NCBI RefSeq assembly: GCF_002261355.1
Contig: NZ_NEVU01000003.1
Location: 1,736,001 to 1,800,000 of the forward strand
Source: Bordetella genomosp. 12
Lineage (GTDB): Bacteria > Pseudomonadota > Gammaproteobacteria > Burkholderiales > Burkholderiaceae_B
DNA: 64,000 bases
Direction: 5' to 3'
A program made the position numbers and the translations under genes. Within the stretch, counting starts at the first letter, position 1, and every line of letters begins with the position of its first letter. The notes beneath the pieces are model-generated. The model was not told where the DNA came from and searched no databases. It saw only the letters and a list, made by a program, of their open reading frames with translations. Positions 2,760 to 33,670 of this stretch are shown in pieces.

Positions 2760-4730
2760 GTGGCACATCCCCAGCCCCCGGCGCGACCGGTGGTAGCGCA
2801 GACTTTCCCCGCGCTTCTGCTCGAACACGCCAGCGTGCGCCCAACGCGCCCCGCCATCCGCGAAAAAGATCTGGGTATCTGGCAAACCCTGACCTGGGCC
2901 GAAGTGGCCGAGCGCGTGCGCCTGTTCGCTCATGGCCTGGCCGACCAGGGCATCGGCCCGGGCAAACACATCGCGGTCATCGGCGAAAACCGGCCGCGTC
3001 TTTACATCGCCATGATGGCCGCTCAGGCCCTTGGGGCCATTCCGGTGCCGCTCTACCAGGACGCCGTGGCTCAAGAGATGGTCTACGTTCTGCAGGACGC
3101 GCAGATCAGCGTGGTGGTCGTCGAAGACCAGGAGCAGGTCGACAAGATGCTCGAGGTACGCGCGCAATGCCCGGATCTCAAAACGGTGGTCTACGACGAC
3201 CCGCGCGGCATGCGCCACTATCACGATGACATGTTGCAGTCCTACGAGGCGCTGGAAGACGCGGGCCGCCGCCATGCGCAAGCCCATCCGGACTTCTATC
3301 TGCAAGCTGCCCGTGCCGTGCAGCCCCAAGACACCGCGGCGATGTTCTATACCTCGGGCACCACGGGCAAACCCAAGGGCGTGGTGCTCACCCATCACGC
3401 CCTCATCGACCGCGCGCAAGCCGTGGCCCGGATGGAGGCGCTGACCGACCAGGAAGATGTGCTGGCCTATCTGCCGCCCGCCTGGATCGGCCAGAACATG
3501 TTCTCGTACACGCAGCTGCTGGTGTCCGGTTTTACGGTCAACCATCCGGAGTCGCCCGATACGGTGGCTATCGACATGCGCGACATCGGCCCGACCTACT
3601 ACTTCGCGCCGCCGCGTGTGCTCGAAGGGCTGCTGACCCATGTGATGATCCGCATGGAAGACGCCGGGCTGATCAAACGCAAGCTGTTTCAAGCCTGCAT
3701 GAATCTTGCCCGCCGGGTAGGCGCGCGCATTCTCGACGGCGAAGCGGTATCGGCCTGGGACGCGCTGCGCTACCGATTGGGCGACCTGATGATCTACGGC
3801 CCCCTGCGCAATGCCTTGGGGATGAGCCGGGTGCGCGTGGCCTATACCGCGGGCGAGGCCATCGGGCCGGATCTGTTCGTGTTCTATCGCTCCATCGGCA
3901 TCAACCTCAAGCAACTGTATGGTTCGACGGAGACCTCGGTCTTTGTCTGTGTGCAACCCGACGGTCAGGTGCGCGACGACACCGTGGGGCCGCCGGTCGA
4001 GGGCGTCCAGATTCGCGTGGCCGACAACGGCGAGATCCTGGTCAAAAGCCCTGGGCTGTTCAAGGAGTACTACCGCAACCCGGCCGCCACGCAAGAAGCG
4101 CGCGATGCCGAGGGGTGGTTTCGCACCGGCGACGCCGGCTATCTGGACGGCGATGGCCAATTGAAGATCATCGATCGCGCCAAGGACGTGGGCAAGTTGG
4201 CCGACGGCAGCCTCTTCGCTCCCAAGTACATCGAGAACAAGCTCAAGTTCTTCCCGCATATCAAGGAAGCCGTGGCCTTCGGCGCGGACCGCGATCAGGC
4301 CTGCGCCTTCATCAATATCGACCTCGAGGCCGTCGGCAACTGGGCCGAGCGGCGTGGACTGGCTTATGCGGGCTATACCGACCTGGCGGGCAAGGACGAG
4401 GTCTACGCCCTGATCCGCGAGTGCCTGGAAAAGGTCAATGCCGACCTGGCCCACGATCCGCGCCTGGCCGCCTCCCAGATCCACCGCTTTCTCATTCTGC
4501 ACAAGGAGCTGGATCCGGACGATGACGAACTCACGCGCACCCGCAAAGTGCGGCGCGCCTTCATCGCGCAGAAGTACGGCGTACTGATCGACGCCCTGTA
4601 CAGCGGCAAGGACAGTCAGTTCATCGAAACCGAGGTCAAGTTCGAGGACGGTCGCAGCGGCAGCATTTCTGCCGACCTGCGCATCAGCCCGGCCAAGACT
4701 TATCCCGCCATCACCGCCAAGGCCGCTTGA
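2760..4730 (+). CDS. AMP-dependent acyl-CoA synthetase (long-chain fatty-acid--CoA ligase type)
   Basis: A 656-residue member of the ANL superfamily, which adenylates a carboxylic acid and transfers it to CoA. It shows the P-loop-like motif YTSGTTGKPKGVVLTH (residues about 197-212), YGSTET (near 386) and the hinge region WFRTGDAGYLDGDGQLKIID (near 452). The GTG start is chosen because GGAGGAG lies 7-10 bases upstream. The gene ends 2 bases before the livG ATG and heads a transporter operon, so it probably activates the acid imported by that system. Fatty versus aromatic substrate cannot be told from sequence. Confidence 0.9.
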   Translation: MAHPQPPARPVVAQTFPALLLEHASVRPTRPAIREKDLGIWQTLTWAEVAERVRLFAHGLADQGIGPGKHIAVIGENRPRLYIAMMAAQALGAIPVPLYQDAVAQEMVYVLQDAQISVVVVEDQEQVDKMLEVRAQCPDLKTVVYDDPRGMRHYHDDMLQSYEALEDAGRRHAQAHPDFYLQAARAVQPQDTAAMFYTSGTTGKPKGVVLTHHALIDRAQAVARMEALTDQEDVLAYLPPAWIGQNMFSYTQLLVSGFTVNHPESPDTVAIDMRDIGPTYYFAPPRVLEGLLTHVMIRMEDAGLIKRKLFQACMNLARRVGARILDGEAVSAWDALRYRLGDLMIYGPLRNALGMSRVRVAYTAGEAIGPDLFVFYRSIGINLKQLYGSTETSVFVCVQPDGQVRDDTVGPPVEGVQIRVADNGEILVKSPGLFKEYYRNPAATQEARDAEGWFRTGDAGYLDGDGQLKIIDRAKDVGKLADGSLFAPKYIENKLKFFPHIKEAVAFGADRDQACAFINIDLEAVGNWAERRGLAYAGYTDLAGKDEVYALIRECLEKVNADLAHDPRLAASQIHRFLILHKELDPDDDELTRTRKVRRAFIAQKYGVLIDALYSGKDSQFIETEVKFEDGRSGSISADLRISPAKTYPAITAKAA

Positions 4731-31074: not shown

Positions 31075-31938
31075 ATGACCTACTGCATCGCGGCCCAGCT
31101 CAACCAGGGCCTGGTCTTTCTCTCCGATTCCCGCACCAATGCCGGGGTGGATCAGATCAGCATCTTCCGCAAGCTGCATGTCTTCGAGCTGCCCGGCGAC
31201 CGCGTCATGGTGCTGATGACCTCCGGCAACCTGGCCATCAGCCAGGCCGTGCTCAATGTGCTCGCAGAAGAAAATGCGCGCCGGCCGGATTCGATATGGC
31301 GCGTGCCGAATATGGTCGAGGCCGCCCGCCGCGTGGGGCAGGCGGTGCGGCGGGTCTACGAGCGCGACGCCGAGGCCTTGCGCGAACAAGGGGTGGAGTT
31401 CAATATCAATCTGATTTTTGGCGGCCAGATCGGTACGGCGCCCTGCCGCCTGTTTCAGGTGTATGCCGCCGGCAATTTCATCGAGGCCACGCCCGAGTGC
31501 CCCTATTTCCAGATCGGTGAGGCCAAGTACGGCAAACCCATCCTGGATCGGGTCTTGCAGCCCGACACCCCGCTCGATGAGGCCGCCAAATGCGCCCTCA
31601 TTTCCATGGACTCCACCTTGCGCTCGAATATCTCGGTCGGGCTGCCCCTGGATCTGCTGGTCTATGAGGCCGCCACGCTGCAGGTCACGCATTTCGCCAG
31701 CATCGACGAGCAGAACGAGTATTTCGCCATGATTCGCGGCAGTTGGGGCGAACGGCTGCGTCAGGTGTTCGCGGAGATCCCGGATCCCCTCTGGAGCCGG
31801 CCGGAAGATCCGGATTCACTGGTGCCCGCGCATCGGGTGCATCAACCCATGCGCATCCGGCCCACGGGCCTGGCCGACCAACCCTATGCCGCCCCCCAAC
31901 TGCTGGCGCAGGGCGCGAGTCCCCAGCAAACCGGCTAA
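31075..31938 (+). CDS. Anbu-type proteasome-like peptidase
   Basis: A 287-residue Ntn-hydrolase of the bacterial Anbu (COG3484) family, related to HslV and 20S beta subunits. Thr2 follows Met1 directly (MTYCIAAQLNQGLVFLSDSR) and would become the N-terminal nucleophile after Met removal; FNINLIFGGQIG and ALISMDSTLRSNISVGLPLD are family segments. Characterised Anbu forms open helical rings and no ATPase partner is known. About 50 C-terminal residues past GSWGERLRQVF look disordered. It is the last gene of the sigma-54 operon. hslV is a separate locus at 55390. Confidence 0.92.
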   Translation: MTYCIAAQLNQGLVFLSDSRTNAGVDQISIFRKLHVFELPGDRVMVLMTSGNLAISQAVLNVLAEENARRPDSIWRVPNMVEAARRVGQAVRRVYERDAEALREQGVEFNINLIFGGQIGTAPCRLFQVYAAGNFIEATPECPYFQIGEAKYGKPILDRVLQPDTPLDEAAKCALISMDSTLRSNISVGLPLDLLVYEAATLQVTHFASIDEQNEYFAMIRGSWGERLRQVFAEIPDPLWSRPEDPDSLVPAHRVHQPMRIRPTGLADQPYAAPQLLAQGASPQQTG

Positions 31939-32414
31939 ACGCCGCAGCGCCGCCGGCGGCCTGCCAGCAAACGATCCAGCGAGCAGCCGGCGGCCCCGCA
32001 AGCAAAGAGCGCAAAGAGCATCAGGGCCAGCATCAAGGGAACCTTAAAGCCCAAGCCGTCGGCGGTCTCGATCTGGTTCCAGCCGGCCCAGCCCAGATCA
32101 AAGTGCACCGCATAGACCGCCACGAACACAATGTAGAGCAGCACACCCGCCGCCCAACGCGTGCCCAGCCCCACGATCAGGGCCAGCCCCAGGGTCAGCT
32201 CGAGCACGCCGGCGGTGACCCAGTTCACGTCGGCGGGCAGCCAGAGTTGCGGCACCGGCATATCCAGCCCACGAAACCAGGCCGGGGCCTGCAACCCGCC
32301 GCTGAGTTTGGTCCAGCCCGCGCGCGCAAACTCCAGGCCGGTCCACACGCGCAACAGCAACAAGGCCACCGCGGGTTCAAGCCGACGCGCGCGCGAGAAA
32401 ATCTCGAAATTCAT
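31935..32414 (-). CDS. DoxX-family membrane protein of MNIO RiPP locus
   Basis: A 159-residue membrane protein with four helices. LLLLRVWTGLEFARAGWTKLSGG is the DoxX N-terminal segment, followed by VTAGVLELTLGLALIVGLGTRWAAG. DoxX proteins are the usual fourth gene of bufferin/Hvf operons, with unknown role, perhaps redox or export. The start at 32414 lies 38 bases inside the end of the DUF2063 gene. The stop region meets the Anbu stop tail-to-tail with a 4-base overlap. Confidence 0.87.
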   Translation of the reverse strand: MNFEIFSRARRLEPAVALLLLRVWTGLEFARAGWTKLSGGLQAPAWFRGLDMPVPQLWLPADVNWVTAGVLELTLGLALIVGLGTRWAAGVLLYIVFVAVYAVHFDLGWAGWNQIETADGLGFKVPLMLALMLFALFACGAAGCSLDRLLAGRRRRCGV

Positions 32415-32649
32415 GCTGTAGGTCTCCGTAGAAAGGTGAGGTCCAGGCCGACTGGCGCACAAACTCCTCGATGAGCACGCGCCAGGCCGACTCACCCAGG
32501 CCGTCGCGCAAGCCGGGGAAGCTCGCATCCACCATCTGGCTGGCGCCCAGGTAGACCAGATAGCGATAGACGCGCATGCCCGCCGCGCTATAGCCCGGCG
32601 GAATCTGATCGCTCAGGCCTCTGACATAGTCATAAAACGCTGCAGACAC
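32377..32649 (-). CDS. bufC: Short DUF2063 (BufC/HvfC-like) partner protein, 90 aa
   Basis: Ninety residues match the N-terminal DUF2063 domain: MRVYRYLVYLGASQMVDASF and LRDGLGESAWRVLIEEFVRQ correspond to the helices that contact the MNIO enzyme and the precursor. Full-length HvfC/BufC/MbnC-type partners are about 200-260 residues, so the C-terminal half is absent. The GTG at 32649 is the only start before the domain and lies 37 bases inside the DUF692 gene. Overlaps on both sides imply tight translational coupling. Confidence 0.75.
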   Translation of the reverse strand: MSAAFYDYVRGLSDQIPPGYSAAGMRVYRYLVYLGASQMVDASFPGLRDGLGESAWRVLIEEFVRQSAWTSPFYGDLQHEFRDFLARASA

Positions 32650-33428
32650 GCCAGCTCCTGGTTGATCTCTTGCGGCCCGGGCAGGTCGTTGTCCCACTCG
32701 AGCAGGATGGCAAAGCCGTATTGCTCGTGCAGTTGCCGCGCCCAATGCGCGGTGCCCTCGGACACGCCGCGGCTATGCGTGTCGATATACATCCCAAAGC
32801 GCGGATCGAATTCGTGCCCGGCCACATGCATATAACTGACGCGTGCCAGATCGATGCGCGACAGAAAACGCGCGATGTCATCGCCGCCATGGTTTTTGTG
32901 ATTGACGTCGATATTGTTCAGGTCGAGAAGGATGGCGCAATCGGCCCGATCCGCCACCTCGGCCAGAAACTCCGCTTCGCGCAGTTCGCCGACATTGGTG
33001 TACCAGGTGCTGTTTTCGATACCCAGGGTCAGGCCCAGGATGTCCTGCGCCTGCCGGATCCGGTCGGCCACACGGCGGGCCTCGGCGCGCGTGAAGGGAA
33101 TGGGAAACAGGTCGTAAAGCTGATGAGCATCGCCGCTGGCGGCCAGGTGGTCGGAGTAATGACAGCTGCCCAGCTCACGCATCAGCGCGGCGACGGCCCG
33201 CAGAAAGCCGCCATCCAAGGCCGCGTGGCCGCCCAGATTGAGCGACACGCCGTGCAAAGCGAGGCTGCGGCCGCTGGCAAGCAGGCGATGCAACGGCGCG
33301 CGATCACGCCGCAACCAGTTTTCTGGCACCACCTCAAAAAAATCCGCCTTGACGGCGGACATATCCCAAGTGGACATCTCACGCCGGTAACCCAGACCGA
33401 CGTGAGGCGTCGCTAACGCTTGGCGCAC
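32613..33428 (-). CDS. bufB: MNIO (DUF692) multinuclear iron oxidative enzyme, BufB/HvfB-like
   Basis: A 271-residue TIM-barrel enzyme of the DUF692 family, which modifies cysteines of ribosomally made peptides with a di- or tri-iron site. Ligand-bearing segments are GVSLNLGGH, SCHYSDHLAASG, LGIENSTWYTN, LLDLNNIDVNHKNHG, VSYMHVAGHEFD, YIDTHSRGV and LLEWDND, spread along the barrel as in MbnB and BufB. The GTG at 33428 overlaps the precursor gene end by 16 bases and starts directly before TPHVGLGYRREM, the normal N-terminus. The frame is open further up but only through the precursor gene. Confidence 0.9.
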   Translation of the reverse strand: MRQALATPHVGLGYRREMSTWDMSAVKADFFEVVPENWLRRDRAPLHRLLASGRSLALHGVSLNLGGHAALDGGFLRAVAALMRELGSCHYSDHLAASGDAHQLYDLFPIPFTRAEARRVADRIRQAQDILGLTLGIENSTWYTNVGELREAEFLAEVADRADCAILLDLNNIDVNHKNHGGDDIARFLSRIDLARVSYMHVAGHEFDPRFGMYIDTHSRGVSEGTAHWARQLHEQYGFAILLEWDNDLPGPQEINQELACLQRFMTMSEA

Positions 33429-33670
33429 GAGGCGTCCTTTTTGCCGCAGCCTGCATCGGGCTGCTCTTTTGTCGAGGACGTTTTGCTGCCGGCCGCGGCT
33501 TTGTCTTGATTGTCTTTGCCGCCGTGCTCGCCTTTGGGTTGCGAGCTTTCTTTCTTGCCGCAAGCGCCGGCGCCGCAGGACTGATCGGCGCCCTCGGCCG
33601 CGGCGACCGACGCCACCAGCGTCGTGGCCAAGGCTGCAATGGTTTTGAGGTAGGCAGCGGAGTGGGACAT
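33413..33670 (-). CDS. bufA: Cys-containing secreted precursor peptide (bufferin/HvfA-like)
   Basis: An 85-residue small protein with a Sec signal peptide (MSHSAAYLKTIAALATTLVA, cleavage near residue 25) and four cysteines at 32, 37, 75 and 82 in SCGAGACGKK and AGCGKKDASC. The middle is hydrophilic and rich in Lys, Gly, Ser and Gln. CG motifs of this kind are converted by DUF692 enzymes to thio-heterocycles that bind copper in bufferins and HvfA. AAGGAG lies 7 bases before the ATG. I assign it as the substrate from position, signal peptide and Cys pattern; no close homologue was checked. Confidence 0.82.
   Translation of the reverse strand: MSHSAAYLKTIAALATTLVASVAAAEGADQSCGAGACGKKESSQPKGEHGGKDNQDKAAAGSKTSSTKEQPDAGCGKKDASCAKR

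Follow-up and report, generated by a model that had tools for sequence, protein, structure and literature searches.

A putative reduced captophorin-type operon in Bordetella genomosp. 12, with a short DUF2063 partner and a precursor that lacks a leader

The closest described relatives of the gene cluster analysed here are the oxazolin or Buf_EGKCG operon hvfABCX of Haemophilus and the fontiphorin, gonophorin and bulbicupramide systems, all of which share with it a precursor peptide, a multinuclear non-heme iron-dependent oxidative enzyme (MNIO), a DUF2063 partner protein and often a DoxX protein. Captophorins carry 5-thiooxazoles and bind copper (PMC12668002), and those of the EGKCG group have in common with our cluster a Sec-type precursor, a small residue after Cys and the conserved site residues of the MNIO. 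The Buf1 (DUF2282) and Buf2 (Buf_6/12Cys) bufferins share its gene order and export by Sec. Our cluster lies on the minus strand, at positions 31935 to 33670, of a stretch of 64,000 nucleotides from Bordetella genomosp. 12 (contig NZ_NEVU01000003.1), hereafter the window, and we propose that it is probably best explained as a reduced captophorin-type (bufferin/oxazolin-like) operon for a ribosomally synthesized and post-translationally modified peptide (RiPP). It belongs to a clade of loci whose defining features, as read from the sequences, are a CGAGxCGKK head, CxKK repeat units where the EGKCG group has EGKCG, the absence of a leader, and a partner of about 90 aa without the half that holds the RiPP recognition element (RRE).

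The four genes follow one another in the order precursor, MNIO, partner and DoxX, with successive overlaps of 16, 37 and 38 nt. They encode an 85-aa precursor (33413..33670) made of a Sec-type signal, a CGAGACGKK head, a 34-residue linker and a CGKKDASCAKR tail; a 271-aa MNIO with a GTG start (32613..33428; PF05114, MbnB_TglH_ChrH, 1.8e-67, 227.8 bits against a cut-off of 25); a DUF2063-only, RRE-less partner of 90 aa, also with a GTG start (32377..32649; PF09836, 1.2e-12); and a DoxX/HvfX-like membrane protein of 159 aa (31935..32414; PF07681, 1.3e-15). An earlier note, made from the letters alone, had described this arrangement as an MNIO RiPP operon of the bufferin/Hvf-like kind whose secreted precursor, of 85 aa, carries two Cys pairs. 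We recovered the same coordinates and overlaps, Pfam confirmed the DUF692 (PF05114), DUF2063 and DoxX identities, the cysteines are indeed Cys32, Cys37, Cys75 and Cys82, and the comparisons below support the general assignment. The window genome contains a single match to PF05114 and a single one to PF09836 (E<=0.001). In B. hinzii (G005) the same four genes are found in the same order, and the first two junctions again overlap by 16 and 37 nt. The ratio of non-synonymous to synonymous substitution rates (dN/dS; NG86) between both genomes, at dS of 0.8-1.4, is 0.12 for the MNIO, 0.12 for the partner, 0.09 for DoxX and 0.38 for the precursor, the Cys residues of which are conserved. Since the gene order is kept in B. 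hinzii and dN/dS is low, the operon is not a product of chance, and by these ratios its genes are under purifying selection although both sigma circuits described below are absent.

The MNIOs related to that of the window form a discrete group. In a tree of 132 MNIOs (51 clade loci and 81 comparators, the 'full_partner' label of the latter being assigned from the MNIO score and not from an observed partner) the 51 are split off by one branch with a support of 100/100. The clade set includes the window (L037), counts 50 different loci because the MNIO and precursor of L119 are identical to those of L077, and excludes the copy of the same-genus genome G014 as well as duplicates (together L001-L003, L005, L006, L026, L032-L036 and L118); L009 and L136 are one locus, and MNIO matches under 120 bits, L024, L025 and L031 among them, stayed outside the comparator set. 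A scan of species genomes with the MNIO profile gave, among the best 80 matches, at least 47 loci at 57-82% identity, the next ones being at 44% or less; the MNIO of the window is 35-44% identical to the comparators among the matches listed. The clade is also rare. Of the 268 genomes of the taxonomic family, six have a match at E<=1e-50. In samples of the order and the class, with 6-7 candidates scored per genome where more existed, clade members appeared in 3 of 399 genomes (437-464 bits, the own genome included; next best 229 bits) and only the own genome passed 1e-70 (1/369), respectively. Within the genus (15 genomes, including our own) the operon is open in four, the MNIO is split in two frames in G014 and the remaining ten are devoid of a clade MNIO. 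Most hosts are Betaproteobacteria, among them Comamonas, Methylophilus, Thauera and Aquabacterium, and a few are Gammaproteobacteria. A plasmid-borne family was considered and discarded, as all of the 37 matching plasmid records have less than 60% identity; the plasmid relatives, including some from Escherichia and Klebsiella, show 33-39% (20 of the 37 records listed). Frame interruptions were seen in the MNIO of G014 (L006/L026), in the precursor of Methylobacillus glycogenes (L046) and in both partner and precursor of Pelistega (L032/L036/L071).

The MNIO of the window stays under the NCBIfam cut-offs for HvfB (218.3 of 360 bits), BufB (189 of 310) and the methanobactin enzyme MbnB (TIGR04159, 48.3 of 325), and its DoxX neighbor under that of HvfX (70.8 of 80). 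With HvfB, HvfC and HvfX cut-offs all missed and a short partner, the cluster was rejected as an ordinary hvf operon. Nine site residues (His59, His94, Glu138, Asp169, His201, Asp216, His218, Glu244 and Asp246) are found in 81/81 comparators and in all or all but one of the clade rows, one of which is incomplete at its start. Asp246 is a candidate for the catalytic base, and the residues that bind iron are presumably among these nine. Close to the active site the clade differs from the comparators: Trp245 in 51/51 (Arg in 71/81 comparators), Asn247 in 47/51 with His in the other four (Phe in 59/81), and Ala97-Ser98-Gly99 in each of the 51 (most often Tyr, Cys and Ser in the comparators). Through alignment to 3bww, we infer that Asp246 and Asn247 are equivalent to Asp249 and Phe250 of FonB. 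This enzyme favors Cys followed by a small residue, and its Phe250 affects the choice of residues around Cys (PMC12668002).

The partner bears the DUF2063 signature (48.3 bits, cut-off 27.2), and its match to the NCBIfam model of HvfC (57.4 bits, cut-off 142) is confined to positions 3-88 of 237. It corresponds to roughly the first third of a protein that normally has some 250 aa, a feature on which the earlier note does not remark. Its structure model (predicted local distance difference test, pLDDT, 94.9) matches MbnC and NGO1945 in their N-terminal halves; a Foldseek search returned nothing at E<=0.001. The same short form (about 90 aa, with the DUF2063 half only) was found in 51/51 clade loci, and all 47 relatives from the best-80 scan were short-partnered (L071 with an interrupted frame), which discards an artifact of a single genome. 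The protein is thus far below the 250-260 aa or so, with a full RRE-type domain, of PME-type 1 partners. Like the captophorins of PMC12668002, the cluster has a gene for a Cys-rich precursor beside that of the MNIO, but of their PME1 partner, with DUF2063 and a predicted RRE, the RRE half is absent. A profile search of seven clade genomes for an HvfC-type RRE half gave no match, within the limited reach of that profile. A replacement RRE fused to the enzyme was likewise rejected: the clade MNIOs examined for it, measured from the match to the stop codon, have 257-292 aa, with the exception of L084, which the contig end cuts. HvfC-type partners seem to have a dual role, binding the substrate and activating the MNIO iron cluster, and HvfB depends on HvfC to reach its mixed-valent iron state (PMC13419390). 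This requirement would be a reason to keep the DUF2063 domain once the RRE was lost.

The precursor of the window begins with a likely signal peptide (residues 1-25, 33596..33670), recognized by inspection from a Lys, a hydrophobic stretch and Ala-x-Ala. It is followed by the head CGAGACGKK with Cys32 and Cys37 (33551..33577) and, at the other end, by the tail CGKKDASCAKR with Cys75 and Cys82 (33416..33448), two CxK[KR] units that make up an abbreviated repeat array; all are on the minus strand. A small peptide of Sec type, with a hydrophobic N terminus and CxK[KR] units, precedes the MNIO in 46/51 clade loci, and no CxK[KR]-type peptide was found in the same 900-nt interval of the 81 comparators. 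Among the five others, L043, L064 and L084 have no usable upstream DNA and L046 and L071 have interrupted precursor frames; the earlier note had named as a refutation the absence of the precursor from relatives that keep the enzyme, and no absence was seen beyond these five loci. The head (CGAG[TS]CGKK or a close form) fits a strict pattern in 41 of the 46 precursors and is accompanied by [DE]ASCSKK repeats, 195 units of which give the consensus K[ED]ASCSKK[ED]. Ser, Gly or Ala follows 285 of the 294 Cys residues. With four Cys, the clade minimum, the window precursor has few repeats. No Pfam family matches it at E<=1, the best NCBIfam match is at chance level (E 0.34), EGKCG was not found by inspection, and none of eight clade precursors exceeded a family cut-off in NCBIfam or Pfam. 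The DUF2282 profile (PF10048), against which the earlier note had advised to search it, is therefore not matched, and a DUF2282 bufferin identity was discarded; the window differs from bufferins also in its four Cys and in its partner of 90 aa versus about 254 aa (CC3256, PMC3511200). The earlier note had further guessed at a subtype from the Lys/Ser/Gln-rich middle between the Cys pairs. A distinct clade does exist, but this middle does not define it: the linker, which is Lys/Ser-rich, varies in sequence already between the window and B. hinzii in the alignment.

Along with the RRE half of the partner, the segment that it might bind is missing from the precursors. By one simple signal-cleavage rule, the distance between the signal and the first Cys has a median of 12 residues in the clade (range 1-12, n=46) versus 32 in the EGKCG comparators (range 0-56, n=53). 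Between signal and core, 37 of these 53 have the motif L..GY, usually as NPF....L..GY, and the conserved stretch reads NPF....L..GY.LA in precursors of L085-L117 and L124-L147; L..GY was found at this place in none of the 46 clade precursors. A joint loss of RRE half and leader is probable, and on the strength of it the NPF....L..GY segment may be read as the target of the RRE in most EGKCG systems. The 16 EGKCG precursors without the strict motif consist of seven near variants (e.g., NPFAAAELSMAY), the one of L008 and eight from the family f44. These last eight contain a different stretch, yet seven of them have a full-length partner, which speaks against a strict coupling; motif and RRE are therefore not strictly coupled outside the clade. 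We would give even chances to the broader proposition that, within the largest class of MNIO RiPPs, the clade is a natural branch with neither leader nor RRE, in which RRE half and leader were lost jointly, the 90-aa domain does no more than support the iron enzyme, and the CxKK units and the Sec signal direct recognition.

Most clade loci (37/51) adjoin one of two circuits of extracytoplasmic function (ECF) sigma factors. In 30 of the 51, a sigma factor and an anti-sigma of about 70 aa are encoded downstream of DoxX. The two sigmas tested are of ECF type, the two anti-sigmas tested score 25.4 and 22.7 bits where NCBIfam requires 50 for an anti-sigma, and Hx3Cx2C is present in 32/32 anti-sigma matches of clade loci. 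The pattern TGTCAGG-N12..19-CGAC, with a background of 0.1% in sequence subjected to simple letter shuffling, precedes the precursor in 27 of the 28 loci that have both the pair and sequence upstream, and in 5 of 20 without the pair, two of the latter on contigs that end at or before DoxX. In Haemophilus and Neisseria, RpoE2/SigE circuits, with an ECF sigma and a zinc-binding (ZAS) anti-sigma, control the hvf-type operons and respond to oxidants (PMC7907618), and the pair of the clade loci resembles them. In seven other loci (Thauera, Methylophilaceae, Oxalicibacterium) a divergent ECF gene stands with an NrsF gene, as the sigmaF-NrsF pair does in the Caulobacter Buf1 operon. NrsF, at about 1e-64 in Pfam in the three tested, is found in exactly these 7 of 51 clade loci, which had first been picked by eye, and in 6/81 comparators. 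GTAACC-N16-CG[TA] precedes the precursor in 7/7 of them versus 0/41 others, and is close to the GTAACC-N16-CGAA of Caulobacter sigmaF (PMC3511200). An inverted repeat similar to GTGCAC...GTGCAC was seen by eye after many promoters, near the expected transcript start (L039-L084); a narrow pattern for it caught only four loci.

Neither circuit is found in the window, B. hinzii or G002. In these three genomes the sigma of B. trematum (100% in B. trematum itself) has best matches of 29-35% identity, and the best anti-sigma matches are at E 0.095, 0.136 and 0.15 versus 8.6e-46. Copies elsewhere in the own genome were considered and rejected, with only distant ECFs and no close anti-sigma match; the TGTCAGG-type pattern has no match there, including upstream of the operon, where a sigma-70 scan also found nothing. 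The upstream regions of four Bordetella have little sequence in common when aligned, with some stretches shared by the window and B. hinzii; G002 has TGAGAGCAT in common with both of these. The tree suggests that the circuit was lost in this branch of Bordetella. As for the flanks, a plus-strand open reading frame (31075-31938) overlaps the end of DoxX by 4 nt and has a weak proteasome-type match (PF00227, E 5e-4, 20.2 bits, under the cut-off of 22.4).

This loss leads to ask whether the Bordetella copy is a decaying remnant from which little or no product is made. Such decay, which we consider improbable, would fit the missing sigma, anti-sigma and promoter pattern of the branch, the MNIO in two frames of G014 and the minimal number of Cys in the precursor, but not the open frames of four Bordetella operons, the dN/dS of 0.09-0.12 for three genes or the cysteines kept with respect to B. 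hinzii. The short partner is common to the whole clade and therefore no sign of decay. It is also very doubtful that an unrecognized protein supplies the RRE in trans and leaves recognition through a conventional leader in place: little or no leader segment is left in the precursors to be bound, and no HvfC-type RRE half turned up in the seven clade genomes, even if discrete and very divergent RREs do exist (PMC12710340) and the profile used has limited reach. The only extra gene observed in the operon, for a protein of about 107 aa with a hydrophobic N terminus between precursor and MNIO in Comamonas (L067, L068, L079, L081; about 3612-3961), turned out to be DUF4148 in the one copy tested.

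A different question is the nature of the product, which might be something other than a copper-binding thiooxazole peptide, with another Cys modification or role such as scavenging of HOCl and other oxidants or binding of another metal. The clade residues next to the active site (Asn247 or His, Trp245, Ala97-Ser98-Gly99) and the likeness of the regulator of most relatives to the oxidant-responsive RpoE2/SigE type (PMC7907618) point in that direction. Nevertheless, we find it rather unlikely, given that the candidate catalytic Asp and the remaining site residues are unchanged, that FonB F250D still made the 5-thiooxazole product and that all characterized MNIO-PME1 cases install 5-thiooxazole (both PMC12668002).

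Under the reading that we prefer, a reduced captophorin-type operon, the 90-aa partner would dock on the MNIO as the N-terminal domain of MbnC does on MbnB, supporting an active iron cluster. With neither RRE nor leader, the MNIO/partner pair itself would recognize the signal peptide and the Cys units directly. Each Cys before a small residue would then be oxidized, probably with loss of 4 H to a 5-thiooxazole, and the peptide, exported by Sec and with DoxX assisting in the membrane, would act in the periplasm as a binder of copper or some other thiophilic metal. The expectation of thiooxazoles formed from Cys, and of copper or another soft metal bound in the periplasm, follows the analogy with captophorins (PMC12668002) and bufferins (PMC12452194). 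In most relatives the ECF circuits probably induce the operon under metal or oxidative envelope stress; having neither, the window genome must control it differently.

How far the family is new, as the earlier note supposed, depends on the adjamnio-3 and CxxxxC families of PMC12452194. The clade is distinct, but either of them could cover it: they share with it a Sec signal, a DUF2063-positive partner and small Cys peptides, and C-x4-C occurs in 43/46 clade precursors. Adjamnio-3 is said to be unstructured, and 54% of CxxxxC operons contain Lactamase_B_2 (PMC12452194). A crude motif scan for [ST]HxHxDH, run without a positive control, found no Lactamase_B_2-like frame in the 51 clade loci, and the nearest Lactamase_B_2 match in seven genomes is about 9 kb from the operon. 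From the descriptions, then, the clade may correspond to one of both. According to the same source, PME-type 1 partners are narrowly distributed at full length and tied to Sec precursors, and many PME-type 2 partners consist of just a DUF2063-related domain, at most with a short remnant of the RRE. PME-type 2 lacks the Pfam DUF2063 signature and goes with signal-less precursors, whereas our cluster has both the signature, above its cut-off, and a Sec-type signal, so that an RRE-less PME-type 1 with a Sec precursor runs against the rule as given there. Among the papers listed by open-access literature searches on the CSKK motif, on short or RRE-independent DUF2063 partners and on Bordetella bufferins, none describes this family to judge by title and abstract. 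Within the open-access literature covered, no description was found of the RRE loss, of the lack of a leader or of the CxKK units.

For the organism of the window, these data predict a small metal-buffering peptide. At the level of the family, evolution seems to have removed the leader-binding half of the partner from this clade, and the enzyme pair that is left is a minimal one from which the role of DUF2063 alone could be learned. If the joint loss is true, NPF....L..GY would be the RRE recognition sequence for much of the EGKCG family. The clade also bears on how an MNIO recognizes its substrate when there is no leader, and on what prevents the premature export of a Sec precursor, a question raised in PMC12452194.

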